Of a stretch of 64,000 nt of DNA, positions 25,588 through 63,665 are shown one piece after another. This DNA comes from Clostridium sp. BJN0013 (GTDB lineage Bacteria; Bacillota; Clostridia; Clostridiales; Clostridiaceae). A program made the position numbers and the translations under genes. The stretch's first letter is position 1, and each line of letters starts with the position of its first letter. The stretch spans positions 124,001 through 188,000 of the forward strand of contig NZ_CP162495.1 in the NCBI RefSeq assembly GCF_040939125.1. The letters run 5' to 3'. Below the pieces are notes generated by a model. That model did not search any database. It saw only the letters and a list, made by a program, of their open reading frames with translations, and was not told the origin of the DNA.

Positions 25588-26996
25588 GTTGAACCTTAAC
25601 ATGGGATGTATTTAAATTAAAACTGATGACGAAATGTTTAATAAGTTAAACTTGTTGAACCTTAACATGGGATGTATTTAAATAATGTTATATTCTTCAT
25701 CTCGTTATCGTTCCAGCTTGTTGAACCTTAACATGGGATGTATTTAAATACTTAATTGTACCTTCAAAGGGCAAGCTATACTGTGTTGAACCTTAACATG
25801 GGATGTATTTAAATGAAAGATTCTAAAACATTGGCTTTATCGCCTACTATGTTGAACCTTAACATGGGATGTATTTAAATGTTTGAAAAAGCTAAAGAAA
25901 TCATCCAAGCATATAAGTTGAACCTTAACATGGGATGTATTTAAATTTCCATTAAAACCCGTACCTATAGGATAAAATCTTAGTTGAACCTTAACATGGG
26001 ATGTATTTAAATATGTTAATTGTATATTATTATAGACAAAAATATTTTGTTGAACCTTAACATGGGATGTATTTAAATTATCCATAAAGTTTATAACGTG
26101 TATCTCAAAGCCCTGTTGAACCTTAACATGGGATGTATTTAAATTTGTCTTTATCTTTTATTAAATTTGATAAGCTTGAGTTGAACCTTAACATGGGATG
26201 TATTTAAATTTTTTGGCAAAGATATTTAAGCTTATCAATGAACTTGTTGAACCTTAACATGGGATGTATTTAAATATTGCAAAAGGGGCCTAGGAAAGAA
26301 GAAGGAAGCACGTTGAACCTTAACATGGGATGTATTTAAATTAATCTGCAGTCTTTTGTGGCGTATATGTCCCATGTGTTGAACCTTAACATGGGATGTA
26401 TTTAAATTAGTAGTTTCTTTGCCTTTTGCCCAATCCATATCTTGTTGAACCTTAACATGGGATGTATTTAAATTTTACTACACGTTTTTTACTCATATTA
26501 TTTTCTTTGTTGAACCTTAACATGGGATGTATTTAAATATGGGAAAAGGACAAGAAAACAGGAGAAAGACTACGTTGAACCTTAACATGGGATGTATTTA
26601 AATTAGGCATTTAAAGGAATAATAACTTTTTATTAATCTGTTGAACCTTAACATGGGATGTATTTAAATAAAATATTTTTAGTTGCTGCTGCTCCATCCC
26701 ATTTAAGTTGAACCTTAACATGGGATGTATTTAAATCTTGACTTCTTTGATTTTATAGTACTTTAGACCATGTTGAACCTTAACATGGGATGTATTTAAA
26801 TAGTTCTTTGTTTGCCTTTTCTAGCTCCTGTGTCTTCGTTGAACCTTAACATGGGATGTATTTAAATTTTAAATTCCGTCCATTTTCTTCATTGGTTTTA
26901 TGTTGAACCTTAACATGGGATGTATTTAAATCTTTTAAAAGAAGGAAAAGTAATTACTGAGGATTAGTTGAACATTAACAAGAGTTGTATTTAAAT
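25588..26996 (+). CRISPR. CRISPR array: 22 repeats of 30 nt, 21 spacers
   Basis: The repeat begins GTTGAACCTT and ends GTATTTAAAT, 30 nt in all. The first 21 copies are identical by eye. The last (26967-26996) is degenerate (GTTGAACATTAACAAGAG start) and marks the leader-distal end. Repeat starts are 64 to 67 nt apart, so spacers are 34 to 37 nt. The repeat resembles type I-B repeats of other Clostridium species. No cas gene lies within the window on either side, so the array relies on a cas locus elsewhere. I saw no spacer that clearly matches other parts of this window. Confidence 0.98.
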
Positions 26997-36652: not shown

Positions 36653-36728
36653 ATGGTAAGGTATTATATAGGATGTCTTGTAGTATATGATTTTTGGGGA
36701 TTGGAAAAGAAGTATGTATTAGTTAAAT

Positions 36729-36796
36729 TATCAAGTGATTCTGAGGTTCAGGTGGAGTTTATTTATAAGAAATACTTTTTTCCATATGAACCTTCA
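36729..36796 (+). repeat. Dispersed structured repeat, copy D left half
   Basis: It starts TATCAAGTGATTCTGAGGTT and contains the first hairpin of the family (GGTTCAGGTGGAG with TTCCATATGAACC). It matches copies at 46111, 48103 and 63486. The copy is interrupted by transposase sequence; the right half is at 36981-37027. Confidence 0.75.
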
Positions 36797-36966
36797 GTTC
36801 AGCCTCCGACATTACAGGAAGCTATACTTATGATAGCTAAATTGGTTGGATTTCTTGGTCGTAAAAGCGATGGCCAGGCGTAAAGGTTATATGGTGTGGT
36901 TTAATGCATCTTAATGATATTGCACAAGATTGGCTTGCAGCTCGTTTGCCAATTTCTTACCAATAA
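36797..36966 (+). pseudogene. IS4-family transposase C-terminal remnant
   Basis: PTLQEAILMIAKLVGFLGRK followed by SDGQA and, after a frameshift near 36880, GVKVIWCGLMHLNDIAQDW. This is the very end of IS4/Tn5-type transposases. It lies between the two halves of repeat copy D. Confidence 0.75.
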
Positions 36967-36980
36967 TGTGTGCAATGTAT

Positions 36981-37027
36981 AGTTGAAGAAGCTGGGGGTG
37001 TTAACTAATTGCTGCCTTCGAATAAAA
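36981..37027 (+). repeat. Dispersed structured repeat, copy D right half
   Basis: GTTGAAGAAGCTGGGGGTGT and TAACTAATTGCTGCCTTCG are nearly identical to the end of copy A (46225-46262). Confidence 0.75.
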
Positions 37028-37250
37028 ATAAATATTAAGAATTTGGCAATTTGTTCAAATGGAATAATTTTTAATATATTAATAAAATTAAAACGTCAAA
37101 GTACTCTAAAAATTGAAGAGGATGTTGAAAAATAAAAGGGGAAAGGAGTATGCTAAAACTAAAAACATTGCAAAATTTAATGTTGTAGATAGAATTAGAT
37201 AGGATTGATAAAGTTTTATAAGGTTTTGGCAAAAGGTAAATAATGTTATT

Positions 37251-46080: not shown

Positions 46081-46110
46081 TATATGATGCAAAACTATAA
46101 ACAGGATTTT

Positions 46111-46260
46111 ATTAGGTGATTCAGAGGTTTAGATGAAGTTTACTCATAAGTAATGCTTTTCTCCATCTGAACCTTAGGAGAGCTTATAAAGGTCACAGCA
46201 GTGTTCATCCCCTACTTTAAAGGAGTTGAGGGTGTTAACTAATTGCTGCCTTCGGATAAA
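46111..46260 (+). repeat. Dispersed structured repeat, copy A
   Basis: Located between dnaX and ybaB. The first stem is GGTTTAGATGAAG with CTCCATCTGAACC (one G-U pair and one mismatch), then a variable middle, then GAGGGTGTTAACTAATTGCT and GCCTTCGGATAAA as a conserved end. Confidence 0.8.
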
Positions 46261-46309
46261 AATATGATATAATTAAATGGATATTAGTTAATTGAGGAGG
46301 AAATAGGCT

Positions 46310-46654
46310 ATGGCAAGAGGAGGATTCCCTAACTTTGGTGGCGGGGGAAATATGAATAATTTAATGAAACAGGCTCAAAAGTTTCAAAAACAAATGGAGG
46401 ATATGCAATCAGAGCTTGAAAATAAAGAGTTTTCTGCTACTGCCGGTGGAGAAGCCATAACAGTAGTAGTAAATGGAAAGAAGCAAATAGTAAGTATAAA
46501 GATTAAACCAGAGGCTGTTGATCCAGAAGATGTAGAAATGCTTGAAGATCTGGTTTTAACTGCATGTAATCAGGCATTAAAAAATGCAGAAGATCAAACT
46601 GCTGCTGAAATGAAAAAGCTAACTGGTGGACTTAATATTCCAGGAATGTTTTAA
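46310..46654 (+). CDS. ybaB: YbaB/EbfC family nucleoid-associated protein
   Basis: A 114-residue DNA-binding protein of the YbaB/EbfC fold. It has a Gly-rich start ([20 protein letters not shown]), the helix [20 protein letters not shown], the beta strand [19 protein letters not shown], and the end [12 protein letters not shown]. It forms dimers and binds DNA near recombination/replication genes. The order dnaX-ybaB-recR is conserved in most bacteria. Ribosome site GAGGAGGAAATAGGCT. Confidence 0.95.
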
Positions 46655-46703
46655 AATTTACGACCCCATCTTAAAAGATGGGGCTTTATATTGAGGTGAT
46701 ATT

Positions 46704-47300
46704 ATGGATTTTTATCCTGTTGCTATCGAAAAGTTAATAGAAGAATTTGCAAAGCTTCCAGGAATAGGACATAAAACAGCTCAGAGACTTACATTACATG
46801 TATTGAATTTACCAGCAGATGAAGTGAGAGAATTTGCTAAGGCATTAGTTAAAGCAAGAGATACTATAAAATATTGTTCTATTTGTGGAAATTTTACAGA
46901 TTCTGATCCTTGTGCCATATGTTCAAATCCTAATAGAGATAAAAGTATAATCTGTGTAATTGAAGAATCTAAAGATATAATGTCCATGGAGAAAATAAAA
47001 GAATATAATGGAGTTTACCATGTATTACATGGCAATATATCGCCTATGGCAGGAAGAGGACCTGAAGATATAAAACTTAAAGAACTTATAAGAAGAATAA
47101 ATGGTGATGTAAATGAAGTTATAGTCGCTACTAACCCGAATGTAGAGGGAGAGGCTACAGCTATGTATATATCTAAAATATTAAAGCATCTCGGAGTAAA
47201 AGTCACTAGAATAGCTCATGGTATTCCTGTAGGGGGCAATTTAGAGTATACAGATGAAGTTACATTATTAAAGGCACTAGAAGGCAGAACAGAAATATGA
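46704..47300 (+). CDS. recR: Recombination mediator RecR
   Basis: A 198-residue protein of the RecFOR pathway. It has the helix-hairpin-helix region [20 protein letters not shown], a four-Cys zinc finger ([17 protein letters not shown]), a Toprim domain ([16 protein letters not shown], then [20 protein letters not shown]) and the C-terminal Walker-like [15 protein letters not shown]. Normal length. It follows ybaB by 49 bases; a small hairpin with GACCCCATC/GATGGGGC lies between and may end ybaB transcripts. Confidence 0.97.
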
Positions 47301-47375
47301 GTAAAATTTGTATATTACACATAATTTATGTTAATTATTAAAGTAATATACAAATTTCAGGAGGTTTCATGTTCT

Positions 47376-47663
47376 ATGAATAAATATAATGTAGTTAAGT
47401 ATTTACTGAGAAAAGGTTCAAAATATACACCAAAACAAAAAAAGTTATTAAAGGATATAGAAATGGCCAGACAAGAATTGGAGAGGTGTAGAATATACTT
47501 TGATGCTGTGAAAGATCCTCATTTGGTGGATTATGCCATATATATGGAAGAAGCAGCAAAAGCAAAATATATGTATCTATTAAATGAAATGAAAAAAAAT
47601 AAAATAAAATTGAATTATAAAAATATATCTAAGAATGTAGATAATAATAGAAAATTATCTTAA
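47376..47663 (+). CDS. DUF2508 (YaaL-type) protein
   Basis: A 95-residue basic protein with a helical hairpin: KQKKLLKDIEMARQELERC, then FDAVKDPHLVDYAIYMEEAA. This is the DUF2508/YaaL family, which follows recR in many Firmicutes and precedes bofA. Function unknown. I chose the ATG at 47376 because GGAGG lies 11 nt upstream and the product then has the family start. Confidence 0.85.
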   Translation: MNKYNVVKYLLRKGSKYTPKQKKLLKDIEMARQELERCRIYFDAVKDPHLVDYAIYMEEAAKAKYMYLLNEMKKNKIKLNYKNISKNVDNNRKLS

Positions 47664-47791
47664 AAAATAAGAAATTTAGACTTATTTCTTTTGTATTAAT
47701 ATTTTTTTACTGTTAGAATATAAATTAAGTAGTAATTATAGTTAAGTGTATAATTATACTAATAGTGGGTTATATGGGAGGAATAAGTATT

Positions 47792-48049
47792 ATGGTTGAA
47801 TATATAGGGTATTTTTTAATTGCTATAGTGGGGTTATATGTTATTGTAAAAGTATTTTCATGGCCTATAAAAATATTATTTAAACTTATTATAAATGCAG
47901 TACTTGGTGTGGTGCTTTTAATAATTGTAAACTTAATAGGAAGCTATTTTGGATTTAGTATAGGAATTAATGCCGTTACTGCACTTATTGCAGGCTTTCT
48001 TGGGATACCGGGAGTAATATTTCTTATAATATTTAAATTATTTTTTTAG
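47792..48049 (+). CDS. bofA: Pro-sigma-K processing inhibitor BofA family protein
   Basis: An 85-residue protein with three hydrophobic helices (YFLIAIVGLYVIVKVF; LIINAVLGVVLLIIVNLIG; the C-terminal GIPGVIFLIIFKLFF) and the conserved IGINAVTALIAGFLGIPG. In Bacillus BofA restrains SpoIVFB so that sigma K appears at the right time in sporulation; clostridial homologues sit at the same place after recR. It suggests a spore former. Start at 47792 follows GGGAGGAATAAG. Confidence 0.9.
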   Translation: MVEYIGYFLIAIVGLYVIVKVFSWPIKILFKLIINAVLGVVLLIIVNLIGSYFGFSIGINAVTALIAGFLGIPGVIFLIIFKLFF

Positions 48050-48102
48050 AAATTTTAATGTATGAGACTTCATTTTTTTATTTTAAGGATGAAGTTTTTT
48101 TA

Positions 48103-48254
48103 TTATCAAGTGATTCTTAGGTTCAGGTGGAGTTTGCTTGTAAGGAATACCTTTCTCCATCTGAACTTTAGAAGAACTTATCCAGGGGCGTAGCAGTGCT
48201 TATCCTCCACTTTGAAGAAGATGGGGACGTTAGCAATGGTAGCCTTCGGATAAA
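48103..48254 (+). repeat. Dispersed structured repeat, copy B
   Basis: Between bofA and sfsA. It starts TATCAAGTGATTCTTAGGTT. The first stem AGGTTCAGGTGGAG with CTCCATCTGAACTT has 14 pairs, two of them G-U. The end reads GATGGGGACGTTAGC and GTAGCCTTCGGATAAA. Confidence 0.82.
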
Positions 48255-48357
48255 GACTTATTCATAAAAATATAACAAAAATAAATTACATGTTACATAT
48301 GAGAATCTGGTATGATCTAAATGTATAAATAAATTTAGTTCTACTGGAGTTGATAGG

Positions 48358-49050
48358 TTGATATTTCATAAAAATATAGTAAAGGCTGAATTTATTAGAA
48401 GACCTAATAGATTTCAAGCTTATGTTAAGTTGAATGACTCAGAGATAATGGTTCATGTTCCTAATACGGGAAGATGTAGAGAGATACTTGTCCCAAGAGC
48501 AACAATACTGTTAAGAGAAGAAAATGGCATAAATAGAAAAACAAAATATGATTTAATAGCAGGATATAAAGGAAATAAATTAATAAATATAGATTCACAG
48601 ATTCCAAATAAAGTTGTAGAAGAAGCTCTAAATAGTGGAAACATAAGTTATTTCAAGAAATATAAAGAAGTAGAAAGAGAAAAGACTTTTGGAAACAGCA
48701 GATTCGATTTTAAACTTTCGGGAAATGGAAGTGAAAAATGTTATATTGAAGTAAAGGGAGTTACTTTAGAGAAAAAAGGAGTGGCCATGTTTCCAGATGC
48801 ACCTACAGAGAGAGGTAGAAAACATTTATTAGAATTGGTAGAAGTAAAAAAATCTGGGATGGATGCAGCAGTATTATTTTTAATTCAAATGAAAGAAGTT
48901 AGATATTTTAGACCTTATGATGAAATGGATAAAAAGTTTGGGGAAGCTTTAAGATATGCAAAGGACAATTATGTTCAAATAGTTGCTTATGATTGTGATG
49001 TAGGTGAAAATTTTATAATTTTAAAAGATGAAATAAAGGTACAATTATAA
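48358..49050 (+). CDS. sfsA: DNA/RNA nuclease SfsA
   Basis: A 230-residue SfsA protein: RRPNRFQAYVKLND and VHVPNTGRCREIL form the N-terminal OB-like part. FDFKLSG, CYIEVKGVTLEKKGVAMFPD and APTERGRKHLLELVE form the PD-(D/E)xK-like nuclease core. It was first described in E. coli as a sugar-fermentation stimulator and later as a nuclease. The start is TTG at 48358, with GGAG 8 nt upstream; no ATG fits. Confidence 0.95.
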   Translation: MIFHKNIVKAEFIRRPNRFQAYVKLNDSEIMVHVPNTGRCREILVPRATILLREENGINRKTKYDLIAGYKGNKLINIDSQIPNKVVEEALNSGNISYFKKYKEVEREKTFGNSRFDFKLSGNGSEKCYIEVKGVTLEKKGVAMFPDAPTERGRKHLLELVEVKKSGMDAAVLFLIQMKEVRYFRPYDEMDKKFGEALRYAKDNYVQIVAYDCDVGENFIILKDEIKVQL

Positions 49051-49191
49051 TAAATTGTATAATATATATTAAATTTATTTTTAATTTTGTATATGTAGTT
49101 TATAATATTAATATATTAATGTTTAAAATATGACATGTAAAAATTTTATTAAAATCAAAGGGGGTGTAGCTGCTTTTGTAGCAGCTTGTTT

Positions 49192-49710
49192 ATGAAATTT
49201 GTATACTGTCCGATATGTGGAAGAAAATTAGAAGAAAAATACAGCTGGGACGAAGGAGGAGTTCCGTACTGTCCTGAAGACAAGATAATGTATTTTGATA
49301 CTCCTAGACCCTGTGTAATGGTGGCGGTGGTAAAGGGAAATTATATATTATTGTTAAAGCAAAGTTATATATTTAAAAATTGTAAGGTTTTATTATCAGG
49401 ATATGTTACAAATGGTGAAAATGTAGAACAAACTGTTCATAGAGAAGTATTTGAGGAAGCTGGACTTAAAATAAAGGATTTAAAATATTTAGGGAGTGAA
49501 TATGTATTTAACAATAAAAAAGAGTTGTTAATGCTTACATTTATGGCCAATTATGGAAGCGGATATATAAAAAAATCTGCTGAGGTGGAAGATGCTAACT
49601 GGATTCATATAAAAGATGCTTTAAATGAAATGCAAGATGATGAAGTTGGTAAAAGAATAGTAAAAAAAGTTTTAAAAGAAATAGAGTATACTGAAGAATT
49701 AATAAAGTAA
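49192..49710 (+). CDS. NUDIX hydrolase with N-terminal zinc ribbon (NudC-like)
   Basis: A 172-residue pyrophosphohydrolase. Residues 1-30 hold CPICGRKL and YCPEDK (zinc ribbon). The NUDIX box is GYVTNGENVEQTVHREVFEE followed by AGL, complete in Gx5Ex7REVxEE form. The layout recalls NAD diphosphatases and mRNA-decapping NudC, though the protein is shorter. The ribosome site GGGGGTG is 29 nt upstream of the ATG, with a hairpin (AGCTGC/GCAGCT) between them that would bring the two close together. Confidence 0.88.
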   Translation: MKFVYCPICGRKLEEKYSWDEGGVPYCPEDKIMYFDTPRPCVMVAVVKGNYILLLKQSYIFKNCKVLLSGYVTNGENVEQTVHREVFEEAGLKIKDLKYLGSEYVFNNKKELLMLTFMANYGSGYIKKSAEVEDANWIHIKDALNEMQDDEVGKRIVKKVLKEIEYTEELIK

Positions 49711-49766
49711 GTGTTGTTAATACTGCAATAGGCTAATAGGTTAAAGAACAAAAAGGGGGAGAAAAT

Positions 49767-50450
49767 ATGGCTAAATATATACCTGAAATAAAAGGTATCC
49801 CTATAAGGCATATGGTTAAGGTACCTGAGGTTATTAGAGAAACAAGTGGTATAAGAATATTTGGTAAAAGGTTAAAATCTTTTTTGTTTACTACAGATGT
49901 AGCAGTTATAAAAAATAGTAATGCAGATGCAGTTATTGCAGTATATCCATTTACACCTCAGCCTCTCATAACTCAAGCAATTCTTTTATCTGCAGATATA
50001 CCTGTATTTTGTGGAGTTGGCGGGGGAGCTGTAGCAGGAAGAAGAGTTGTAAACTTAGCTTTAGATGCAGAATTTAAAGGGGCTATGGGAGTTGTTTTAA
50101 ATAGTCCTACTCCAAATGAAGTTATAAGACAGGTAAGAGATACTATAGATATACCTATAATAGTAACAATAGTGTCAGAGTATGAAAATGTAAAAGAAAG
50201 AGTGGAATCGGGAGTTACTATAATAAATGTATCAGGTGCTAAAGAAACTCCTAAAATAGTAAAAAAGGTTAGAGATGAATATCCTAGTTTTCCTATAATA
50301 GCTACAGGAGGTCCAACAGAAGAAAGTATAAAAAATACTATCCTGGCAGGTGCCAATGCAATAGCATTTACTCCACCTACATCAGCTGAAATTTTAAGCA
50401 AGATTATGGTTAAAAATAGAGAAATATATGCGAAAAAAAATCAGGAGTAA
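49767..50450 (+). CDS. TIM-barrel protein of unknown function
   Basis: A 227-residue protein with alternating beta/alpha units and Gly-rich phosphate-binding-type loops (FCGVGGGAVAGRR, IIATGGPTEESIKN, AGANAIAFTPP). This is the look of a small (beta/alpha)8 barrel like ThiG or PdxS-type folds. Members are annotated only as hydrolase-like in clostridia, as far as I know. No catalytic residues can be assigned. Good AAAAGGGGGAGAAAAT ribosome site; probably single gene. Confidence 0.6.
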   Translation: MAKYIPEIKGIPIRHMVKVPEVIRETSGIRIFGKRLKSFLFTTDVAVIKNSNADAVIAVYPFTPQPLITQAILLSADIPVFCGVGGGAVAGRRVVNLALDAEFKGAMGVVLNSPTPNEVIRQVRDTIDIPIIVTIVSEYENVKERVESGVTIINVSGAKETPKIVKKVRDEYPSFPIIATGGPTEESIKNTILAGANAIAFTPPTSAEILSKIMVKNREIYAKKNQE

Positions 50451-50548
50451 AGAACTTAATTAGAATAGAAGTATATTATATTTTAGAGAGGAATAATTTC
50501 TTTTATATTTTATAATTTAGTAAATGTAAAAGTTAAGGTTGTTATGCT

Positions 50549-51331
50549 ATGAAAGGTATTTTATATTATTTTAGTGGTACTGGAAATACTAAATGGGTGG
50601 CAGATAGATTTAAAAAAAATTTTAAGTTTTATAATGTAGACATAGATTTAATAGATATACAACATATAGAAGATAAAGGATTAAAAAAATGTGATTTTGT
50701 AATTATAGGTTCACCAGTTCATGTGGGATTTCCACCCAAAATTGTAAGAGATTTTTTGAATAGACTTGATTCCTTAAAGAAAAACAAAAAAGTTATAATA
50801 TATTGTACACAAGCAGCTGAATCGTCTTCTGCATGTTGTTTTATAGCAAAATGTTTAAAGAAAAAAGGATATATTATTTCCGCACAGATTAGCGTAAAAA
50901 TGCCAAATAACTATTATTTTTTTATAGGTAAAAAACCTACGAAAAATGAAATTGAAAATTTATTGATTAAAGCTGATAAAAAAGTTAAAAATGTAATAGA
51001 AAATTTTATAAAAAATAAAAATACTAATGAAAACACTTTTTTTATTAGGCTTCAATTAAACAAAATAGCTTATGATATATTTAAAAGTATGGTTCCTAAA
51101 TTATCTAAGAATATATATTCTACAAAAGAATGTAATAAGTGCGGATTATGCCTGAGAAATTGTCCGCAGGGAAATATAACATTTGAAGGAGGATATGCAA
51201 TTTTTCATAGTAAATGTATTTTATGTCTTAGATGTATACATATATGCCCCATAAATGCCATAAGATATAAAAATAAAAAAATAGATCAAACCCAAAAAAA
51301 TATAATGAAAGTATTAAATTTAAATAAATAA
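50549..51331 (+). CDS. EFR1-type flavodoxin-ferredoxin fusion
   Basis: A 260-residue redox protein. The N-terminal half is flavodoxin-like with the FMN-phosphate loop FSGTGNTKWVADRF near residue 8 and IIGSPVHVGFPPK near 52. The C-terminal 80 residues hold two 4Fe-4S motifs (CNKCGLCLRNCPQGNI; CILCLRCIHICPINAI). It is the EFR1 (ferredoxin) family, which moves electrons in anaerobes; partners are unknown. Confidence 0.9.
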   Translation: MKGILYYFSGTGNTKWVADRFKKNFKFYNVDIDLIDIQHIEDKGLKKCDFVIIGSPVHVGFPPKIVRDFLNRLDSLKKNKKVIIYCTQAAESSSACCFIAKCLKKKGYIISAQISVKMPNNYYFFIGKKPTKNEIENLLIKADKKVKNVIENFIKNKNTNENTFFIRLQLNKIAYDIFKSMVPKLSKNIYSTKECNKCGLCLRNCPQGNITFEGGYAIFHSKCILCLRCIHICPINAIRYKNKKIDQTQKNIMKVLNLNK

Positions 51332-51383
51332 AATTTTAGATTCAGACAATACTAAAGTTATAATGTTTTTGGGAGTGAATTGA

Positions 51384-51569
51384 ATGTTTTCGTCACAAGA
51401 TAAAATGATCATTGCAGAGAATTGTAAAGAATATAGGGCTAGAAGTTATATGTTAAGTCTACAGGCTAGTTATGTTGCAAATGATTGCAGTAATTGTATG
51501 AATTTTTCTAACAACAAATGTACGAAAAATCTATTTAATAAAATTGGAAAAATGATAAGTATTAATTAA
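51384..51569 (+). CDS. Small Cys-containing clostridial protein, 61 aa
   Basis: TTGGGAGTGAATTGA precedes the ATG. The product has five Cys, four of them in CSNCMNFSNNKC and an earlier AENCKEYR, so it may bind metal. No family recognised. It lies between EFR1 and the serine-operon promoter and may be transcribed alone or with EFR1. Confidence 0.6.
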   Translation: MFSSQDKMIIAENCKEYRARSYMLSLQASYVANDCSNCMNFSNNKCTKNLFNKIGKMISIN

Positions 51570-51597
51570 AAATTATGTTTTATTTTAAAAATAAGTA

Positions 51598-51626
51598 TTG
51601 ACATATATAAGAATACAACATATAAT
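51598..51626 (+). promoter_or_regulatory. Sigma-A promoter of the serine operon
   Basis: TTGACA (51598) and TATAAT (51621) are both consensus and separated by exactly 17 bases. It precedes the first T-box. Confidence 0.9.
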
Positions 51627-51659
51627 AGATAACAAATCTTAAGACCTAATGAATTAAAT

Positions 51660-51879
51660 ATTATTCTATGAAGAGAATAGTAACATAAGTTTAGGTAAAA
51701 GAGAATCAGTGGCTGGTGGAAGCTGATACCTATACTTTTGTGAATCCATCTTGGAGAGTTACTGCGATGAGTAGTACGGAAAATCCGTTATTTTAATGAG
51801 AGGGTTATATTTTTATATAATCAATAAGGGTGGTAACGCGAGCCAATCGTCCCTAAGAGGATTTGATTGGCTTTTTTAT
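51660..51879 (+). promoter_or_regulatory. T-box leader 1, serine specific
   Basis: Stem I features (GAAGAGAATAGTAAC; AGAGAATCAGTGGCTGG), a specifier codon TCC at 51745-51747 (in GTGAATCCATCTTGGAG), and the antiterminator T-box AAGGGTGGTAACGCG with bulge UGGU at 51831. It ends in a terminator (AGCCAATC/GATTGGCT, then TTTTTT). Uncharged tRNA-Ser with anticodon GGA and discriminator G fits both contacts (U-G at the last one). Readthrough occurs when serine is short. Confidence 0.95.
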
Positions 51880-51895
51880 ATTAAAATTAAATATT

Positions 51896-52116
51896 ATCCT
51901 ATGAAGAGAATAGTAATATAAGTTCAGGTAAAAGAGAATCAGTGGCTGGTGTAAACTGATACCTAATTTTTGTGAATCCGCCTTGGAGGATTATTATGAT
52001 GAATAATACGGAAAACCGTTATTTAAATTGAGAGAATTATACATGAAAGTATAATTAATAAGGGTGGCAACGCGAGTCAATCGTCCCTAGAGGGGGCTAT
52101 TGACTCTTTTGTTTTA
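51896..52116 (+). promoter_or_regulatory. T-box leader 2, serine specific
   Basis: A second full T-box directly after the first. It has the same stem I pattern, specifier TCC at 51977-51979, T-box AAGGGTGGCAACGCG with bulge UGGC at 52065 (perfect match to GCCA), and a terminator GAGTCAAT/ATTGACTC then TTTTG. The tandem arrangement means two antitermination events are needed for expression. Confidence 0.95.
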
Positions 52117-52181
52117 TACCTGATTTATATATTAATTATAATATTTATTTAAGTAATTATGTAAATTTTGGAGGTACAAGT

Positions 52182-53252
52182 ATGCATAAAAAATTATTTA
52201 TTCCAGGGCCTGTAGAAGTAAAAGAAGATGTGTTGGAAAAAATGTCCCAGCCTATGATAGGGCATAGAAGCAAAGAAGCTTCTGCATTGCAAAAGAGAAT
52301 TAGTGATAAATTAAGAATTTTATTTAATACGAAAGAAGAGATATTATTATCCACCAGTTCAGGAAGTGGACTTATGGAAGGGGCCGTAAGAACCTGTACA
52401 GCAAAAAGAGCAGCAGTTTTTTCAATAGGTGCATTTGGAAAAAGATGGTATGAAATGGCTAAAAATAATAATGTGCCAGCTGATTTGTATGAAGTGGAAT
52501 GGGGAAAAGCTTTAGATATAGAAAAAATTCATGAAGTATTAGATTCTAATAAATATGATGTAATTTGTATAACTCATAATGAAACTTCAACTGGAGTAAT
52601 GAATCCTGTAGAGGAAATATCTGAAGTTGTAAAGAAATATCCAGAGGTTGTATGGTGTTTAGATACAGTTAGTTCTATGGGAGGTACTAAAATAGAAGTG
52701 GATAAACTTGGTGTGGATGTATGTTTAACATCCAGTCAGAAAGCTTTAGGGCTTCCTCCAGGAATATCAGCTTGTTCCTTTTCAAAAAAAGCGGTAGAGA
52801 GAGCAAAAAAAGTAGAATTCAGAGGGTATTATTTGGATTTACTTTTACTCTATGATTATATACAGAAAAAAAATTACCAGTATCCCTCAACTCCTTCTAT
52901 TTCACATATGTTTGCTATGGATTACCAGCTGGATAAAATACTAGAAGAAGGATTGGAAAATAGATATAAAAGACATTTAGAGATGGCTGAGTATGTTAGA
53001 GACTGGGCTAGAGAATATTTTGAATTATTTGCTGATGAAAGGTATCTTTCGAATACTCTTACTAATATAAAAAATGTTAGAAACATAAGTGTAGCTGACT
53101 TAAATAGAGAATTAGGTGAAAGAGGATTTCAGATTTCTAATGGTTATGGAAAGTTAAAAGAAAAAACATTTAGAATAGCTCATATGGCTGATTGCAATAT
53201 TTCAGATATAAAGGAACTTTTAGAAAATATTAATTATATATTAAAATTGTAG
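52182..53252 (+). CDS. Class V aminotransferase (phosphoserine/serine-glyoxylate type)
   Basis: A 356-residue PLP enzyme. The N-terminus FIPGPVEVKEDVLEKM and GHRSKEASALQ are typical of the alanine-glyoxylate/serine-pyruvate branch. The PLP lysine is in SSQKALGLPPGISA near residue 187, and the Asp contacting the ring is in WCLDTVSSMGG near 163. Its place before serA and behind serine T-boxes indicates that it does the SerC step (3-phosphohydroxypyruvate to phosphoserine). Good GGAGGTACAAGT ribosome site. Confidence 0.88.
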   Translation: MHKKLFIPGPVEVKEDVLEKMSQPMIGHRSKEASALQKRISDKLRILFNTKEEILLSTSSGSGLMEGAVRTCTAKRAAVFSIGAFGKRWYEMAKNNNVPADLYEVEWGKALDIEKIHEVLDSNKYDVICITHNETSTGVMNPVEEISEVVKKYPEVVWCLDTVSSMGGTKIEVDKLGVDVCLTSSQKALGLPPGISACSFSKKAVERAKKVEFRGYYLDLLLLYDYIQKKNYQYPSTPSISHMFAMDYQLDKILEEGLENRYKRHLEMAEYVRDWAREYFELFADERYLSNTLTNIKNVRNISVADLNRELGERGFQISNGYGKLKEKTFRIAHMADCNISDIKELLENINYILKL

Positions 53253-53270
53253 ATTTGGGAGGTCTTAATA

Positions 53271-54203
53271 ATGATAAAAATATTAGTTAGTGATGGAATG
53301 GATAAAGAGGCTTTAAATAAACTTGTAGAGGATGGTTATGAAGTTCTAGATAAACACTTTGATGAAGAGGAATTAAAAGATAAGATAAAAGATTTTGATA
53401 TAATAGTGGTAAGATCTGCTACTAAAATAAGAAGACCACTTATAGATGCAGCTAAAGACGGAAATTTAAAACTTATAATAAGAGGAGGAGTAGGAGTGGA
53501 TAACATTGATGTAGATTATGCACTTCAAAATGGAATAGCAGTTAAGAATACTCCAAATGCTAGTGCTGCTTCAGTTGCAGAGTTGACACTCGCTCATATG
53601 TTTGCCATATCAAGATATGTAAATATTTCTAATGTAACTATGAGAAATAGTGAATGGCATAAAAGTCAATATAAAGGAGTAGAATTATATGGTAAAACTT
53701 TAGGAATTATAGGTTTTGGAAGAATTGCAAAAGAAGTTGCAAAAAGGGCAAGCGCATTAGGTATGAAAATAATATATACTGATAAACTTGGAATGGCAAA
53801 GGGGTATAATAATTATGAGTTTTGTGAGTTTAAAGATTTGTTAAAAAGAGCAGATTATATAACGCTCCACATTCCATTTAATAAAAATCAAAAAGCTTTA
53901 ATAGGAGAAGAAGAATTTAATATTATGAAGGATGGAGTATATATAATAAATTGTGCAAGAGGCGGAATAATAGATGAGAGGGCTTTAATAAATGCATTGA
54001 ATTGTGGTAAAGTTGCAGGTGCTGGAATAGATGTATTTGAAAATGAACCTAACCCTTGTGAGGAGCTTCTGAATAATGATAGAGTATCGGCAACACCTCA
54101 TATAGGAGCATCAACTTGTGAAGCTCAAAAGAGAATAGGCATGGAAATAGTAAATATAGTTGAACAATATTATCTTGATAAGAATTTAATTAATGTATGT
54201 TAA
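53271..54203 (+). CDS. serA: D-3-phosphoglycerate dehydrogenase, short form
   Basis: A 310-residue NAD-dependent dehydrogenase. The Rossmann loop is LGIIGFGRIAKEVAKRA near residue 145, the substrate-binding segment RGGVGVDNIDVDYA near 75, the catalytic Arg in NCARGGIIDERAL near 230, Glu in DVFENEPN and His in TPHIGASTCEAQ near 278. It lacks the C-terminal ACT domain, so no allosteric feedback by serine is expected and control falls on the T-boxes. It follows the aminotransferase by 18 bases. Confidence 0.94.
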   Translation: MIKILVSDGMDKEALNKLVEDGYEVLDKHFDEEELKDKIKDFDIIVVRSATKIRRPLIDAAKDGNLKLIIRGGVGVDNIDVDYALQNGIAVKNTPNASAASVAELTLAHMFAISRYVNISNVTMRNSEWHKSQYKGVELYGKTLGIIGFGRIAKEVAKRASALGMKIIYTDKLGMAKGYNNYEFCEFKDLLKRADYITLHIPFNKNQKALIGEEEFNIMKDGVYIINCARGGIIDERALINALNCGKVAGAGIDVFENEPNPCEELLNNDRVSATPHIGASTCEAQKRIGMEIVNIVEQYYLDKNLINVC

Positions 54204-54225
54204 TATACTATAAAAGGAGAAAGAG

Positions 54226-55473
54226 ATGATAACTTTAAAGGCATTTAAAGCACTAAGACCTAGAGAAGATATAGTTCAAAAGGTTGCTGAACTTCCCTAT
54301 GATGTTATGAATAGCAAAGAGGCAAAAGAAATTGCAAAAGATAATAAATATTCTTTTCTACATGTAGATAAAGCAGAAATTGATTTAGATGAAAATATAA
54401 ATTTATATGATAGGGAAGTTTATATAAAAGCTAATGAAAATTTACAAAATATGATAGATAACAAGATATTAATACAAGATAAAAAAGAAAATCTATATAT
54501 TTATAGATTAATTATGAATGGAAAAAGTCAGGTTGGTATAGTAGCATGTACATCTATAGATGACTACATTAATAATAAAATAAAAAAACATGAGTATACG
54601 AGAAAAGATAAGGAACAAGATAGAATAAATCATGTAGATTTTTGTAATGCAAATACTGGGCCTATATTTTTAACTTACAAATATAATGATAAAATTGATG
54701 AACTGGTAAACACTTGGATACAAAAAGATCCCATTTATGATTTTACAGCAGAGGATGGAGTTAAAAATACTGTATGGGTTATAGATGATAATAAAACAAT
54801 AAATGATATTTGTAGTTTATTTAAAGATGTAGATAGTTTGTATATAGCAGATGGACATCATAGGGCAGCTTCAGCAGTGAAAGTCGGACTTAAAAGAAGA
54901 GAAGAAAATCCAAATTATTCAGGAAATGAGGAGTTTAATTTTTTCCTATCGGTAATTTTTCCACACTCACACTTAAATATTATAGATTACAATAGAATCG
55001 TTAAAGATTTAAATGGTCTTTCTAATGAAGAATATATGAATAAAGTTTTAGAGAATTTTAATATAAATATATGTGAGGAACAAGGACCCTATAAACCTTC
55101 TTCTAAACATAATTATGGAATGTATTTAAATGGCAGGTGGTATAGACTTACTGCTAAAGAAGGAATTTATGATCCTCTTGATCCTGTTGGAAGATTAGAT
55201 GTATCTATTCTTCAAAATAATTTATTAGCTCCAATTTTAGGCATAAAGGATCCACGTACAGATAATAGAATTGATTTTGTAGGTGGAATAAGAGGACTCA
55301 AGGAGTTAGAAAGTAGAATAGACGAGAAAAACACAGGTGTTGCATTTTCCATGTATCCTACTACATTAGAAGATTTAATGAATATTGCAGATGCTGGGAA
55401 AGTAATGCCTCCTAAATCTACTTGGTTTGAACCAAAACTTAGAAGTGGTCTGTTCATTCACAAGTTAAAATAG
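54226..55473 (+). CDS. DUF1015 family protein of the serine operon
   Basis: A 415-residue protein matching DUF1015. It starts FKALRPREDIVQKVAELPYD and contains YIADGHHRAASA near residue 210, a motif that resembles the DGHHR of ParB-like serine kinases (SerK, SbnI). It follows serA by 22 bases in a T-box-controlled operon, and no serB-type phosphatase is present here. A role in the phosphoserine-serine step is therefore a fair inference but not shown. Ribosome site AAAGGAGAAAGAG. Confidence 0.88.
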   Translation: MITLKAFKALRPREDIVQKVAELPYDVMNSKEAKEIAKDNKYSFLHVDKAEIDLDENINLYDREVYIKANENLQNMIDNKILIQDKKENLYIYRLIMNGKSQVGIVACTSIDDYINNKIKKHEYTRKDKEQDRINHVDFCNANTGPIFLTYKYNDKIDELVNTWIQKDPIYDFTAEDGVKNTVWVIDDNKTINDICSLFKDVDSLYIADGHHRAASAVKVGLKRREENPNYSGNEEFNFFLSVIFPHSHLNIIDYNRIVKDLNGLSNEEYMNKVLENFNINICEEQGPYKPSSKHNYGMYLNGRWYRLTAKEGIYDPLDPVGRLDVSILQNNLLAPILGIKDPRTDNRIDFVGGIRGLKELESRIDEKNTGVAFSMYPTTLEDLMNIADAGKVMPPKSTWFEPKLRSGLFIHKLK

Positions 55474-55589
55474 TTGCTTAATTATTGTATTTAACATATA
55501 GATGTAAAGATATAAAAATTTATTTTAAAATAAATCTTTATATCTTTTAGTGTTTTTTGTAATATATCTAATGTAAGTCAATAAATTTT

Positions 55590-55695
55590 TAAGTTTGATA
55601 CAAGACTTTAAGTATCAGAACAAGGGTCTTGGTAGTATCAATTACACACACTTCGAAGAAGATGGGGATGTTAGCCAACTTGACCTCTTATATAA
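55590..55695 (+). repeat. Dispersed structured repeat, divergent copy E
   Basis: The first stem has a new sequence (CAAGAC/GTCTTG), but the second half keeps CTTCGAAGAAGATGGGGATG and TTAGC, as in copies B and D. The final GCCTTCGGATAAA has decayed. It lies downstream of the serine operon. Confidence 0.5.
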
Positions 55696-55895
55696 ACATA
55701 TCCTTGTGTATCTTTATGTAAAAAATATAGAAATAAATAAAATATATGAGATATAATAAGATAATCTTATAATTTTGCCGTGAAAGTGAATTTTTATATG
55801 TAAGGCTATGATATAATAACCTTCGTCGTGTCAGCAGTACCTAAAAACAAGTAAATCAACAAATTTAATTAATATAAAGAAATAATAAAAAAGTA

Positions 55896-55924
55896 TTGAC
55901 AAAGGGAAAATGAGATGATATACT
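55896..55924 (+). promoter_or_regulatory. rRNA operon promoter
   Basis: TTGACA (55896) and TATACT (55919) with a 17-base spacer, about 180 bases before mature 16S rRNA. Confidence 0.85.
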
Positions 55925-55968
55925 ATAAAAGCTGTCTGGGAAAACAGGCGGCAGTAAAGATTAGATAT

Positions 55969-55991
55969 GATCCTTGAAAATTAAACAGAAT
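55969..55991 (+). other. 16S processing stalk, 5' strand
   Basis: GATCCTTGAAAATTAAACAG and the next three bases are complementary to 57680-57702 beyond the 3' end of 16S, forming the RNase III stem of the precursor. Confidence 0.85.
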
Positions 55992-56101
55992 GAAGAACAT
56001 AGGTAAACTTATTTATTAAAGAATAAACCAGCAATTCTTTTGAGCTGCGAGAGCAGTAGAGGAAGTAATTTCGTAAAGTAAGAAATGAGTCAAAAACTTT
56101 T

Positions 56102-61012
<4,911 letters not shown>

Positions 61013-61069
61013 AATAATATTTACTGTGCAATTTTGAGGGGATAAAACTCCTGAACAAAAGAATAGAAA

Positions 61070-61186
61070 TCTGGTGGCAATAACGTGGAGGCAACACCCC
61101 TTACCATTTCGAACAGGAAGGTTAAGTTCCACAGTGCCCATGGTACTGCAGGGGAGGCCCTGTGGGAGAGCAGGTCGCTGCCGGAT
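61070..61186 (+). rRNA. rrf: 5S ribosomal RNA
   Basis: About 117 nt starting TCTGGTGGCAATAACGTGGA, with the conserved CCATTTCGAACAGGAAGGTT and closing strand GCTGCCGGAT pairing with the start. Confidence 0.95.
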
Positions 61187-61193
61187 ATGTTTT

Positions 61194-61269
61194 GGTTCAC
61201 TAGCTCAGTTGGTAGAGCACATGACTTTTAATCATGTTGTCCGGGGTTCGATTCCCCGGTGAGCCACCA
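61194..61269 (+). tRNA. tRNA-Lys (anticodon TTT)
   Basis: A 76-nt tRNA with acceptor GGTTCAC/GTGAGCC, anticodon loop CTTTTAA, T loop GTTCGATTC and encoded CCA, eight bases after 5S. It is cotranscribed with the rRNA genes; a T-rich hairpin (GAAGCATAT/ATATGCTTC, 61278-61301) follows as terminator. Confidence 0.97.
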
Positions 61270-61456
61270 ATAGGGAAAGGAAGCATATTATTGATATGCT
61301 TCCTTATTTATTTAAAAAATAAATATTATATTTAAAATCCATTATTATATTCCAATAATAGAAAAACTTTCATTGTAGTTATGTTATAATTAAAGTAATC
61401 CATAATTATTAGATGAAACACAATTAAATTATTAATATATTTGATTGGAGGTAAAT

Positions 61457-62488
61457 ATGAAGGATTTAGACTTTTTTAGAACAATATGTGAAGCTCATGC
61501 GCCAAGTGGAAGAGAAGATTGGCTGTATTCTATTATAGAGGATAATTTTAAGGAATTTGGAGAGACAACTATAACTAAATTAAATAACATGTATATACAT
61601 AAGAGAGGTACAACTTCTAGTAAATTAATGATAATGTCTCATGCAGATGAAGTCTTTTTGATGGTAAAAGAAATTTCTAAGGATGGATTTATAAAATTTG
61701 AAGGATTTGGAATAGATGCAAAAAGTCTTGTTTCTCAAGAAGTTATCATTCATGGAAGAGAAAATATATCTGGAATTGTAGCATTAAAATATAATTATAA
61801 TGATAAAGAGAAAAACAAAGTTTCCATGGAAAATTTATATATAGAAACTGGACTTAGTAGAGAAAGATTAAAAGACATAGTTGGATTAGGAGATTATATT
61901 ACATTGGATAGAAAGATGGTACGGCTTTTGAATAATAATGTAAGTTGTAAATCAATAGATAATAGAGCTAGCATTTTTGCTATGTATATTTGTGCAGAAG
62001 AACTTAAAAATGTAAATTCAGATCTGGGTGTCTATTTTGTATGTTCATGTCAGGAAGAAGTAGGGCATAGGGGAGCCAAAATGGTAAGTTATGATATTAA
62101 ACCCGATATAGGTATAGCGCTTGATGTAACCTTCGACAGTGGAATGTTAGGAGATAGCAATAGAGAAAACAAGCTAGGGAAAGGGCCAGTTATATGCATA
62201 GGACCTAATATACATACTAAAATTAGAAATAGATTAATACAAACAGCAGATAAGTACAATATCCCTTATCAGGTTGAAGTAGAACCAGGAAATACAGGAA
62301 CAGATGCTTGGGATATTCAAACTTCCGTAGGTGGAATAGCTACAATTCTTATATCCATTCCTATAAGATATATGCATACTTCTGTAGAAGTAGTTAATTT
62401 AGAAGATATAAGAAATACAGGAAGACTGTTAGCAAGATTTATTCAGGAATTAAAAGAGAGTGAATTGGAGGGACTATTTTGTTTTTAG
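61457..62488 (+). CDS. M42 family metallopeptidase (intact)
   Basis: A 343-residue TET-type aminopeptidase/glucanase-family enzyme. All metal and catalytic motifs are there: SHADE (His and Asp), SIDNRAS (bridging Asp), CQEEVGHRG (catalytic Glu and metal Glu), ALDVTFDSG (Asp) and RYMHTSVEV (His). Such enzymes form dodecamers that trim peptides from the N-terminus in the cytoplasm. The start at 61457 follows GGAGGTAAAT; an in-frame TTG at 61445 would overlap that site. It overlaps the next gene by 10 bases. Confidence 0.93.
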   Translation: MKDLDFFRTICEAHAPSGREDWLYSIIEDNFKEFGETTITKLNNMYIHKRGTTSSKLMIMSHADEVFLMVKEISKDGFIKFEGFGIDAKSLVSQEVIIHGRENISGIVALKYNYNDKEKNKVSMENLYIETGLSRERLKDIVGLGDYITLDRKMVRLLNNNVSCKSIDNRASIFAMYICAEELKNVNSDLGVYFVCSCQEEVGHRGAKMVSYDIKPDIGIALDVTFDSGMLGDSNRENKLGKGPVICIGPNIHTKIRNRLIQTADKYNIPYQVEVEPGNTGTDAWDIQTSVGGIATILISIPIRYMHTSVEVVNLEDIRNTGRLLARFIQELKESELEGLFCF

Positions 62489-63495
62489 AAAAACTTTGTA
62501 ATTCTATAGGGCCTTCAGGATATGAAGATCAGATTAGAAATGTAATAAAAGATGAACTAAGTACTTTTAATGACAATATACTTGTAGATAGAATGGGAAA
62601 TATTATAGTTAATAAGGATAAACAAGATAATTCTTCACCTAAAATAATGGTGATTTCTCATATGGATGAAGCAGGGCTTATAATAACTGCATATAATAAA
62701 GATGGAACATTAAAATTTTCAACATTAGGAGATATAGATAAAAATTCACTTCCCTGTAAAACTGTTTTAATTGGAAATAAAAAAATACCTGGAGTTATTG
62801 GAATAAAGCCAATACATGTTCAGAGTAAGAAGGAAAGAAATGAAGACATATCCTATGAAAGTATGTGTATAGATATAGGTGCTTTTTCTGAAGATGAATG
62901 CAGGAAGGTTGTATCATTAGGTGATTTTGTAATATTTAATAGTGAATTTTCTAGTTTTGGAGATAATCTTTTAAAAGGAAAAGCTCTAGATAATAGAATA
63001 GGATGTTCTGTACTTTTAGAGTTATTAAAAGAAGATTTAAATTGTAATTTGTATGGTGTATTTAATGTTCAAGGAAATATAGATCAAAGAGGTATTTATG
63101 CAGCTGCTTACAATGTTGATCCAGATTTAGTTATAATTTTAGATACCATAAATAGTATAGATTATATGGAAATTCCTAGTTATTTCAGAACAAGTAAATT
63201 AAGAGAAGGTCCTGTGATACCTTTTAAAGGGGGACAATGTATATTTGATAGAGACATTGTAGAATCTATAAGGAATAAGGCAGATGATATAGGTATACCA
63301 TATCAAAAAATTGGGAATACCCAGGGAGAAGGAGAACTTAAAGCAGCTTATCTCACTACTAGTAATTGTAAAACAGCATCAATATTATTACCATGCAGAT
63401 ATATGAATTCTAATATTTCTGTATGTAGTTTAGCCGATTATGATAACACTTTAATCTTGTTAAAAAGTTATTTAGAGGACTATAGTATCAAGTAA
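62479..63495 (+). CDS. M42 family paralogue lacking catalytic residues
   Basis: A 338-residue M42 fold protein with a TTG start (GGAGGGACTATTTTG). It keeps SHMDEAG and ALDNRIG, but the QEExGxRG motif has become QGNIDQRG (both Glu lost), and the last His of RYMHTxxE has become Asn (RYMNSNISV). It should therefore not be an active peptidase of the usual kind. It overlaps the intact gene and probably joins the same mixed complex as a structural or regulatory subunit. It is not decayed: the frame is full length. Confidence 0.85.
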   Translation: MFLEKLCNSIGPSGYEDQIRNVIKDELSTFNDNILVDRMGNIIVNKDKQDNSSPKIMVISHMDEAGLIITAYNKDGTLKFSTLGDIDKNSLPCKTVLIGNKKIPGVIGIKPIHVQSKKERNEDISYESMCIDIGAFSEDECRKVVSLGDFVIFNSEFSSFGDNLLKGKALDNRIGCSVLLELLKEDLNCNLYGVFNVQGNIDQRGIYAAAYNVDPDLVIILDTINSIDYMEIPSYFRTSKLREGPVIPFKGGQCIFDRDIVESIRNKADDIGIPYQKIGNTQGEGELKAAYLTTSNCKTASILLPCRYMNSNISVCSLADYDNTLILLKSYLEDYSIK

Positions 63496-63637
63496 TTCAG
63501 AGGTTCAGGAGGAGTTTGTTCATAAGGAATATTTTTCTTTATTTGAACCTTAGAAGAAATTATAAAGTGGAATAGATTCTCCACTTTGAAGAAGTTTGAA
63601 AAAGCTGGGGTTTAGCTGACTGTCTCCTTCGGACAAA
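63486..63637 (+). repeat. Dispersed structured repeat, copy C
   Basis: It starts GTATCAAGTAATTCAGAGGT inside the last codons of the second M42 gene and runs into the space before the third. The first stem keeps GGTTCA/TGAACC, and there is an internal CCACTTT (AAAGTGG/CCACTTT stem). The end is GCTGGGGTTTAGCTGAC and CTCCTTCGGACAAA. Confidence 0.8.
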
Positions 63638-63665
63638 TATTTAGAATATATAAGGGGTGAAAATT

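Follow-up and report, generated by a model that had tools for sequence, protein, structure and literature searches.

A mobile, structured repeat of about 150 bp in Clostridium sp. BJN0013 and its relatives in several classes of Bacillota

Copies of the repeat in the window and in the source genome

The window, i.e., the whole 64,000-nt stretch of Clostridium sp. BJN0013 analysed here (contig NZ_CP162495.1, positions 124,001 to 188,000), carries an interspersed repeat of about 150 bp in copies designated A to D and probably in a fifth one, E, all on the + strand. Genomes and loci are designated below by G and L numbers, G000 being the source genome (4.10 Mb). Copies were located with R1, a covariance model built from 42 copies of the source genome (A, B and C included), while R2 denotes a broader structured covariance model. 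Copy A (46111..46255, + strand) is a full-length copy of 145 bp (R1 match 46108-46262, 150 bits) placed between dnaX and ebfC-like genes, the gene names being those of an earlier note made from the letters of the window, and is bounded on its 3' side by the target ATAAA (46256..46260, + strand; TTTAT on the opposite strand), which is found in the empty site too. In the aligned orthologous sites of 10 congeners, copy A is not present at this place; in G002 and in G005, additional sequence of another kind stands a little way upstream of the site, and that of G002, which ends TTCGGATAAA, is perhaps a decayed copy. By eye, the ebfC-like gene has a conserved TATAAT-like box just downstream of copy A, which may therefore change the promoter context of this gene.

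Copy B (48105..48249, + strand; R1 match 48102-48256, 186 bits) is near-consensus, lies downstream of a bofA-like gene and is followed by ATAAA (48250..48254, + strand); G003 and G004 have diverged copies at the same site. Copy C (63487..63633, + strand; R1 match 63484-63639, 114 bits) is flanked by two genes and is full length (147 bp) and partly decayed, with ACAAA at its boundary (63634-63638). The lengths of A, B and C are thus 145-147 bp, and their folding z-scores are -2.9, -4.9 and -1.6, respectively, relative to dinucleotide shuffles, the value of C alone not being significant. Copy D is in two parts, namely a 5' hairpin half (36730..36794, + strand; R1 36727-36856, 58 bits; blastn 86.6% to B) and a 3' end (36983..37021, + strand; R1 36960-37028, 38 bits; blastn 89% to A), which is followed by ATAAA at 37022-37026. 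The two are split by a degraded transposase tail (36795..36982, + strand), labelled insertion sequence (IS) 4 in the earlier note and recognised by translation and by comparison with locus L364. This tail takes the place of the middle of the copy, its right end matching the repeats that bound the insert at L364. The reading of A to D as one repeat of about 150 bp on a shared plan is borne out by the R1 matches, the frame TATCAAGTGATTC...GCCTTCGGATAAA being confirmed in the copies. Copy E (55574..55698, + strand), upstream of a 16S rRNA gene, is recognisable in its 3' half only; its membership is sustained by a weak R1 match (37 bits, E=5e-5) together with a 27-bp blastn piece and is at best that of a decayed copy, because R2 gives no match there at E<=0.1.

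The four or five copies counted in the earlier note are those of the window only. With copy B as query, at least 40 matches were obtained in the source genome, with 287 first-look candidates. A sample of 400 kb, taken as twenty 20-kb segments at intervals along the chromosome, has 21 copies by the covariance model (E<=0.01), from which about 215 copies per genome are estimated (95% range 133-329). Likewise, the single orientation along co-oriented genes holds for the copies of the window and dissolves at the scale of the genome, where 64 placed copies (similarity-picked, sample and window copies pooled) are distributed as 31 on the + strand and 33 on the - strand, and 32 of the 52 copies with readable neighbours have the orientation of the downstream gene (p=0.13, with a crude caller of open reading frames, ORFs). 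The copies are essentially intergenic, 54 of 56 being clear of predicted ORFs or overlapping them by 60 bp at most.

Insertion sites and mobility

The copies are a mobile element, as shown by species-specific insertions next to ATAAA. The closest relatives of the source genome are G003 and G004, the RecR region of which is 90.5-90.7% identical to that of G000 and 96.2% between the two. Flank queries for 20 source-genome loci gave usable orthologs in these relatives for 18 (L009 and L010 excepted), making 20 loci with A and B. A clean empty site is found at 11 of these 20 loci (A, L011, L014, L016, L018, L020, L024, L026, L027, L031 and L033), four are occupied in both relatives (B, L012, L021 and L023) and five are unreadable (L013, L019, L025, L028 and L032). 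This comparison of orthologous loci, which the earlier note had proposed, thus supports its suggestion of a mobile element resembling a miniature inverted-repeat transposable element (MITE) or a repetitive extragenic palindrome (REP).

At the 11 empty loci, the source flanks joined at |ATAAA match at least one relative with 0-8 edits per 44 nt, some orthologs having substitutions; this number does not exceed that of the flanks taken singly, while filled or unreadable orthologs need 11-16. At L018, the joined flanks show 0 edits in both relatives. Since the left flank joined to a right flank that begins with ATAAA reproduces the empty orthologs, the 5' ATCAAG belongs to the element and ATAAA to the target, and the insertion point lies directly 5' of ATAAA, that is, 3' of TTTAT on the other strand. 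ATAAA forms the 3' boundary in 39 of the 42 aligned source-genome copies, the 5' flanks have no conserved motif (T at -1 in 24/42), and the 5' end of the element itself reads ATCAA in the window group and ATAAA in several other groups. Outside the source genome, a tnpB-like gene of G004 is interrupted, at ATAAG, by a copy 96% identical to B. Locus L033 has a copy in G000 and in G004, the two having rare variants in common, but none in G003, although G003 and G004 are sisters; this precise absence is best read as a loss. Terminal inverted repeats are missing from the 42 aligned copies, which have ATCAAGTGATTC at one end and TTTATCCGAAGG inward from the other, and a classical DDE MITE was rejected on this ground.

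Fold, covariation and modular variants

The consensus begins with ATCAAG, finishes with GG|ATAAA and folds into two long hairpins. Hairpin 1 is formed by AAGT-GA-TTCT-AGGTTCAGGTGGAG paired with CTCCATCTGAACCT-AGAA-GA-ACTT, and hairpin 2 by ATCC-AGGnGC paired with GCnTTC-GGAT, followed by a four-base helix and by an apical CTCCCA/TGGGAG helix; by eye, the mid-helix of hairpin 2 varies as TGCT/AGCA, CCGT/ACGG, CTCT/AGAG and CTGT/ACAG. The 42 source-genome copies (alignment A2) comprise similarity matches, two near neighbours in the same loci, A, B and C, so that A2, its rows being chosen by similarity, leans to the best-preserved copies. Source-genome copies alone gave with RNAalifold 9 pairs and one double change, and the case for structure therefore rests on wider sets. 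Alignment A3, made by MAFFT from sequence only, holds 27 copies, namely 20 loci of 14 other Clostridiaceae genomes and 7 source-genome copies (the second tandem copy of L304 omitted, rows with a misaligned left arm, i.e., L287-L289 and L293, retained), and was scored with a structure hand-written from copy B. In A3, 87.1% of the cells are paired vs 35-48% with the partner slid, and 100 cells are changed on both sides vs a shuffled mean of 36 (0/500 shuffles reach 100); both-side changes affect 16 of the 40 pairs, a number equalled by 65/500 shuffles. Alignment A5, which was fitted to the model and in which 19 loci give 21 rows (two minor extra rows included), has 91.3% of cells paired vs 39-48% slid, and 21 of its 40 pairs are doubly changed. 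Compensatory covariation is thus strong in two alignments, and the selection on RNA structure advanced in the earlier note is upheld by A3 and A5.

Some copies have additional modules. Fifteen stretches of G002, G004, G006, G007, G008 and G009 were chosen as those where the match to B ends at position 113-119; in 14 of them, the apical loop of hairpin 2 is longer by about 50-55 bases, and the fifteenth (L093, reread as L364, in G004) has an IS-like insert instead. Longer additions to the apical loop occur at L358 and L359 (nearly 70 bases) and at L368 (about 165). Another kind of module, a distinct hairpin of about 55 nt adjoining hairpin 1, is seen at L074 and L369, in the copies that the relatives have at the L021 site, and in the G004 copy at site B. 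The insert of L364 (L364:3381-3625) is an IS-like piece of about 240 bp, with end repeats matching the insert of copy D (36795-36982), and sits in the same apical loop; two such pieces in unrelated places suggest that the apical loop of hairpin 2 is a preferred IS target. An IS4-like element as mobiliser of the repeat, one of the possibilities raised in the earlier note, is accordingly discarded, the pieces in D and L364 being insertions into the repeat.

Distribution

The family is found in several classes of Bacillota, its elements being mostly about 120-220 bp long, non-coding and non-autonomous, with the two-hairpin fold. Copy B has matches in 70 of 206 Clostridiaceae genomes, i.e., in 19 of 46 genera, and in 10 of the 13 genomes of its own genus, the source included (G012 with a single weak match). 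R2 has matches in 36 of 398 genomes drawn evenly across the phylum Bacillota (29 of 267 genera), namely the source, one genome of the same family and 34 of the same phylum but not of the same class; it finds nothing in 80 RecR loci. In A5, ATAAA stands at the 3' end in 15 of the 19 loci, and many elements start with ATAAA-, ATCAA- or ATTAA-like sequence. Thirty genomes were tested, with at least 102 copies in Clostridium ljungdahlii ERI-2, at least 102 in C. magnum DSM 2767, 11 in Heyndrickxia acidiproducens, 7 in Bacillus sp. FJAT-47783, 5 in Niallia nealsonii, 4 in C. bornimense and 1 each in C. celatum and Metabacillus halosaccharovorans, and none in the other 22, B. spizizenii included. 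Two clostridia used in industry, C. ljungdahlii and C. magnum, thus have intergenic copies of the repeat by the hundred, and relatives occur in Bacillaceae.

Among mobile replicons, queries B, L291 and L406 had no match in the plasmid collection, and queries B, L295, L403 and L434 none in the phage collection. Against plasmids, L403 had one 29-bp match, on a Clostridiaceae plasmid, and L434 matched four records, i.e., Pseudalkalibacillus (99% covered, in three places), two Peribacillus (partial) and one Klebsiella. A 63-bp stretch with a 78% match to hairpin 1 (L464:3001-3063) lies on a Klebsiella grimontii plasmid, thus outside Bacillota. In viral contigs, there were 21 exact core matches, three of which resemble the element by eye (L442, L443 and L454) and 18 do not.

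Relation to known elements

Rfam 15 gave no credible match over the repeat (window at gathering scores; 4 and 17 loci at E<=1), the sole overlapping match, on the minus strand with E=0.8, being taken as chance; and no sequence or description of the repeat was noticed among the best-ranked matches in open-licence literature. The statement of the earlier note that no named class fits is thus right for Rfam and overlooks bcr1, an interspersed repeat which is reported to be confined to the Bacillus cereus group and of which copies are reported on plasmids. Up to 130 copies of bcr1 are described, with mobility linked to TTTAT (PMC6542083), and the element is given as 147-167 bp long with conserved structure (PMC2267715). 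Like bcr1, the present repeat is interspersed, about 150 bp long and present in tens of copies, as seen from the 21 copies in 400 kb and from the 145-147 bp of A to C, and has TTTAT (=ATAAA) at its 3' boundary; unlike bcr1, with its restriction to one species group, the family extends over 19 Clostridiaceae genera and 29 genera of the phylum-wide sample. Compared by description, not by sequence, bcr1 appears as the closest known element in size, copy number, mobility and TTTAT, and on that footing the repeat is filed as a variant of the bcr1-like kind and not as bcr1 itself. REPs are described as 20-40 bp long (PMC3733652), with a 5' GT[AG]G foot (PMC6006769). The repeat shares with REPs and REPINs the character of many small palindromic intergenic repeats, and differs by its about 150 bp and two long hairpins from a palindrome of 20-40 bp with such a foot; genes resembling those of REP-associated tyrosine transposases (RAYTs) are present in 43 of the 70 repeat-bearing Clostridiaceae genomes. 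In HEARO/IscB systems, a structured RNA lies in a mobile element beside a short motif, from which the repeat differs by having neither an Rfam HEARO match nor an association with IscB.

Possible routes of movement

Transposition of single-stranded DNA, mobilised in trans by an HUH-type transposase of the IS200/IS605/RAYT style, is tentatively favoured, with a probability of about 0.45, and an IS200/IS605-type process is the best fit to the junctions. Group A IStrons, which belong to IS200/IS605, are described as inserting downstream of TTGAT, ATTAT or TTTAT (PMC4227781). Like non-autonomous IS200/IS605 elements and IStrons, the repeat has terminal hairpins, no inverted repeats, no clear duplication and insertion on the side of TTTAT, and, like an IS200/IS605 MITE, it uses a fixed short target, the |ATAAA junction fitting 11 of the 11 readable empty sites. 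Both ends of the element would be brought side by side by the two hairpins, because the internal (C/G)TTATCC pairs with AAG/AAC near the 5' end and with the 3' GGAT. The internal TTAT is complementary to the target ATAA and could pair with it, which recalls the guide-target pairing of the IS200/IS605 family. Movement would be a cut-and-paste reaction on single strands with the enzyme acting in trans, where the 3' end of the repeat would act as the transposon left end, these two steps being the least certain.

Several points weigh against such transposition. According to the canonical IS200/IS605 polarity, the minus strand would be the folded one, whereas G-U exceeds A-C on the + strand of the repeat (67 to 35 in A3, binomial p=0.002; 41 to 9 in A5, p=6e-6; the cells are not independent, and the scored structure, written for the + strand, favours G-U somewhat); besides this opposite polarity, the repeat differs from IS200/IS605 by its long hairpins with optional side domains. 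While PF01797 (Y1) has 15 matches in G000, it has none in the repeat-bearing G004, G006, G107 and G153, later loss being possible; these Y1-negative genomes have 43 (G004) and 57 (G006) scored repeats and at least 4 scored repeats each in G107 and G153, of 116 and 55 candidates, respectively, and in G006 only a weak remnant of a RAYT-like gene is left (E=5e-7). The loci fetched are a subset of all matches, and among them neither a partner element nor a transposase was seen between repeat-like ends, so that the IS200/IS605 mobilisation entertained in the earlier note agrees with the junctions and lacks, in these loci, a partner with the same ends. At the few Y1, RAYT or TnpB loci that have a repeat nearby (L205, which is the same gene as L307; L321; L262; L268; and L274), the repeats look like single neighbours or insertions, and the IS200 copies of G000 itself were rejected as source of the ends, since their ends and left flanks are unrelated to the repeat. 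A 2-bp AT duplication would look identical at the junctions compared, where no target duplication of more than 2 bp is present; replication-strand bias is absent (66/119, p=0.27, with the origin taken at coordinate 0); and the missing copy at L033 stands as one example, which recombination with an empty allele could explain. Finally, the association of RAYT presence with the repeat in Clostridiaceae is weak, the 43/70 repeat-bearing genomes comparing with 65/136 others (p=0.08).

RAYT as mobiliser was tentatively set aside, as 28 of 30 RAYT loci are without a copy despite the overlap at L205, and a repeat is near the RAYT gene in 2 of the 30. At L205 (L205:1468-2055, in G005), the 3' end of a RAYT-like gene overlaps a repeat copy (2037-2229), and about 85 bp upstream of a second RAYT-like gene (L370:2083-2673, minus strand) there is a copy as well. 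TnpB in G000 was also rejected, the element stopping before the repeat starts in the two copies compared, so that their adjacency looks like chance.

Among the alternatives to IS200/IS605-style transposition, it is unlikely, though well worth weighing, that the repeat is a branch of the bcr1 family moved by the possible route, similar to site-specific recombination, reported for B. cereus repeats (PMC6542083). The similar size, copy number and association with TTTAT (PMC6542083) speak for it, as do the relatives in Bacillaceae and other classes; on the other side, five subfamily queries had no blastn match on B. cereus-group plasmids at E limits from 1e-5 to 1e-2, the plasmids of this group in the collection being uncounted. 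If bcr1 belongs here, a repeat reported from a single species group would turn out to be one branch of a family present in several classes. The covariance model and the empty-site rule make it testable, in non-pathogenic hosts, what moves bcr1-type repeats.

An RNA-mediated route is compatible with the missing Y1 matches and with the excess of G-U. More doubtful than the bcr1 branch, a retro-element resembling a short interspersed element (SINE) would have the + transcript as its mobile form, hence the selected RNA fold, with the 3' AUAAA priming on nicked TTTAT and reverse transcriptase borrowed from elsewhere, e.g., from a group II intron protein. Such a retro-element agrees with the fold and G-U bias on the + strand, with a conserved 3' ATAAA that is element end and target at once, with modular peripheral hairpins as found in RNAs, with the group II introns detected by Rfam in the window, one having a maturase-like ORF, and with the four repeat-bearing genomes having no Y1 match. 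The precise absence at L033, best read as loss, is unexpected for a retro-element, and 5' truncation would be expected where intact 5' ends are seen, a weak objection since copies were picked for full-length similarity. That the family would be a phylum-wide bacterial counterpart of SINEs, i.e., a structured RNA of about 120-220 nt with an RNA intermediate, 3' AUAAA priming and an enzyme from unrelated elements, is a bolder proposal and improbable.

Very improbable is an omega RNA on its own, of the HEARO-like kind, where the RNA would guide an IscB-type nuclease and ATAAA would be its 3' target-adjacent motif: the geometry of IscB agrees with the strand of the RNA and with ATAAA being on the 3' side, but PF14239 is present in 3 of the 70 repeat-bearing genomes, none of 20 PF14239 loci has the repeat, so that IscB was rejected, and Rfam finds no HEARO. 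Least credible is a host regulatory RNA or 3' untranslated-region element spread by ordinary duplication, an origin suited to the intergenic position of the copies but largely refuted by the lack of a clear orientation preference, by species-specific insertions at one motif and by the copy inside the tnpB-like gene, a secondary role in the host being possible.

Neighbouring features

In the source genome, the end of a TnpB gene is followed by a RAGATH-18 RNA at L009 (L009:2501-2810), an arrangement as expected from the description of RAGATH-18-guided TnpBs (PMC11061315). In the window itself, a CRISPR array with 22 repeats matching Rfam CRISPR-DR3 extends over 25588-26996, and two tandem T-box leaders (51659-52091) lie upstream of an ORF starting at 52182.

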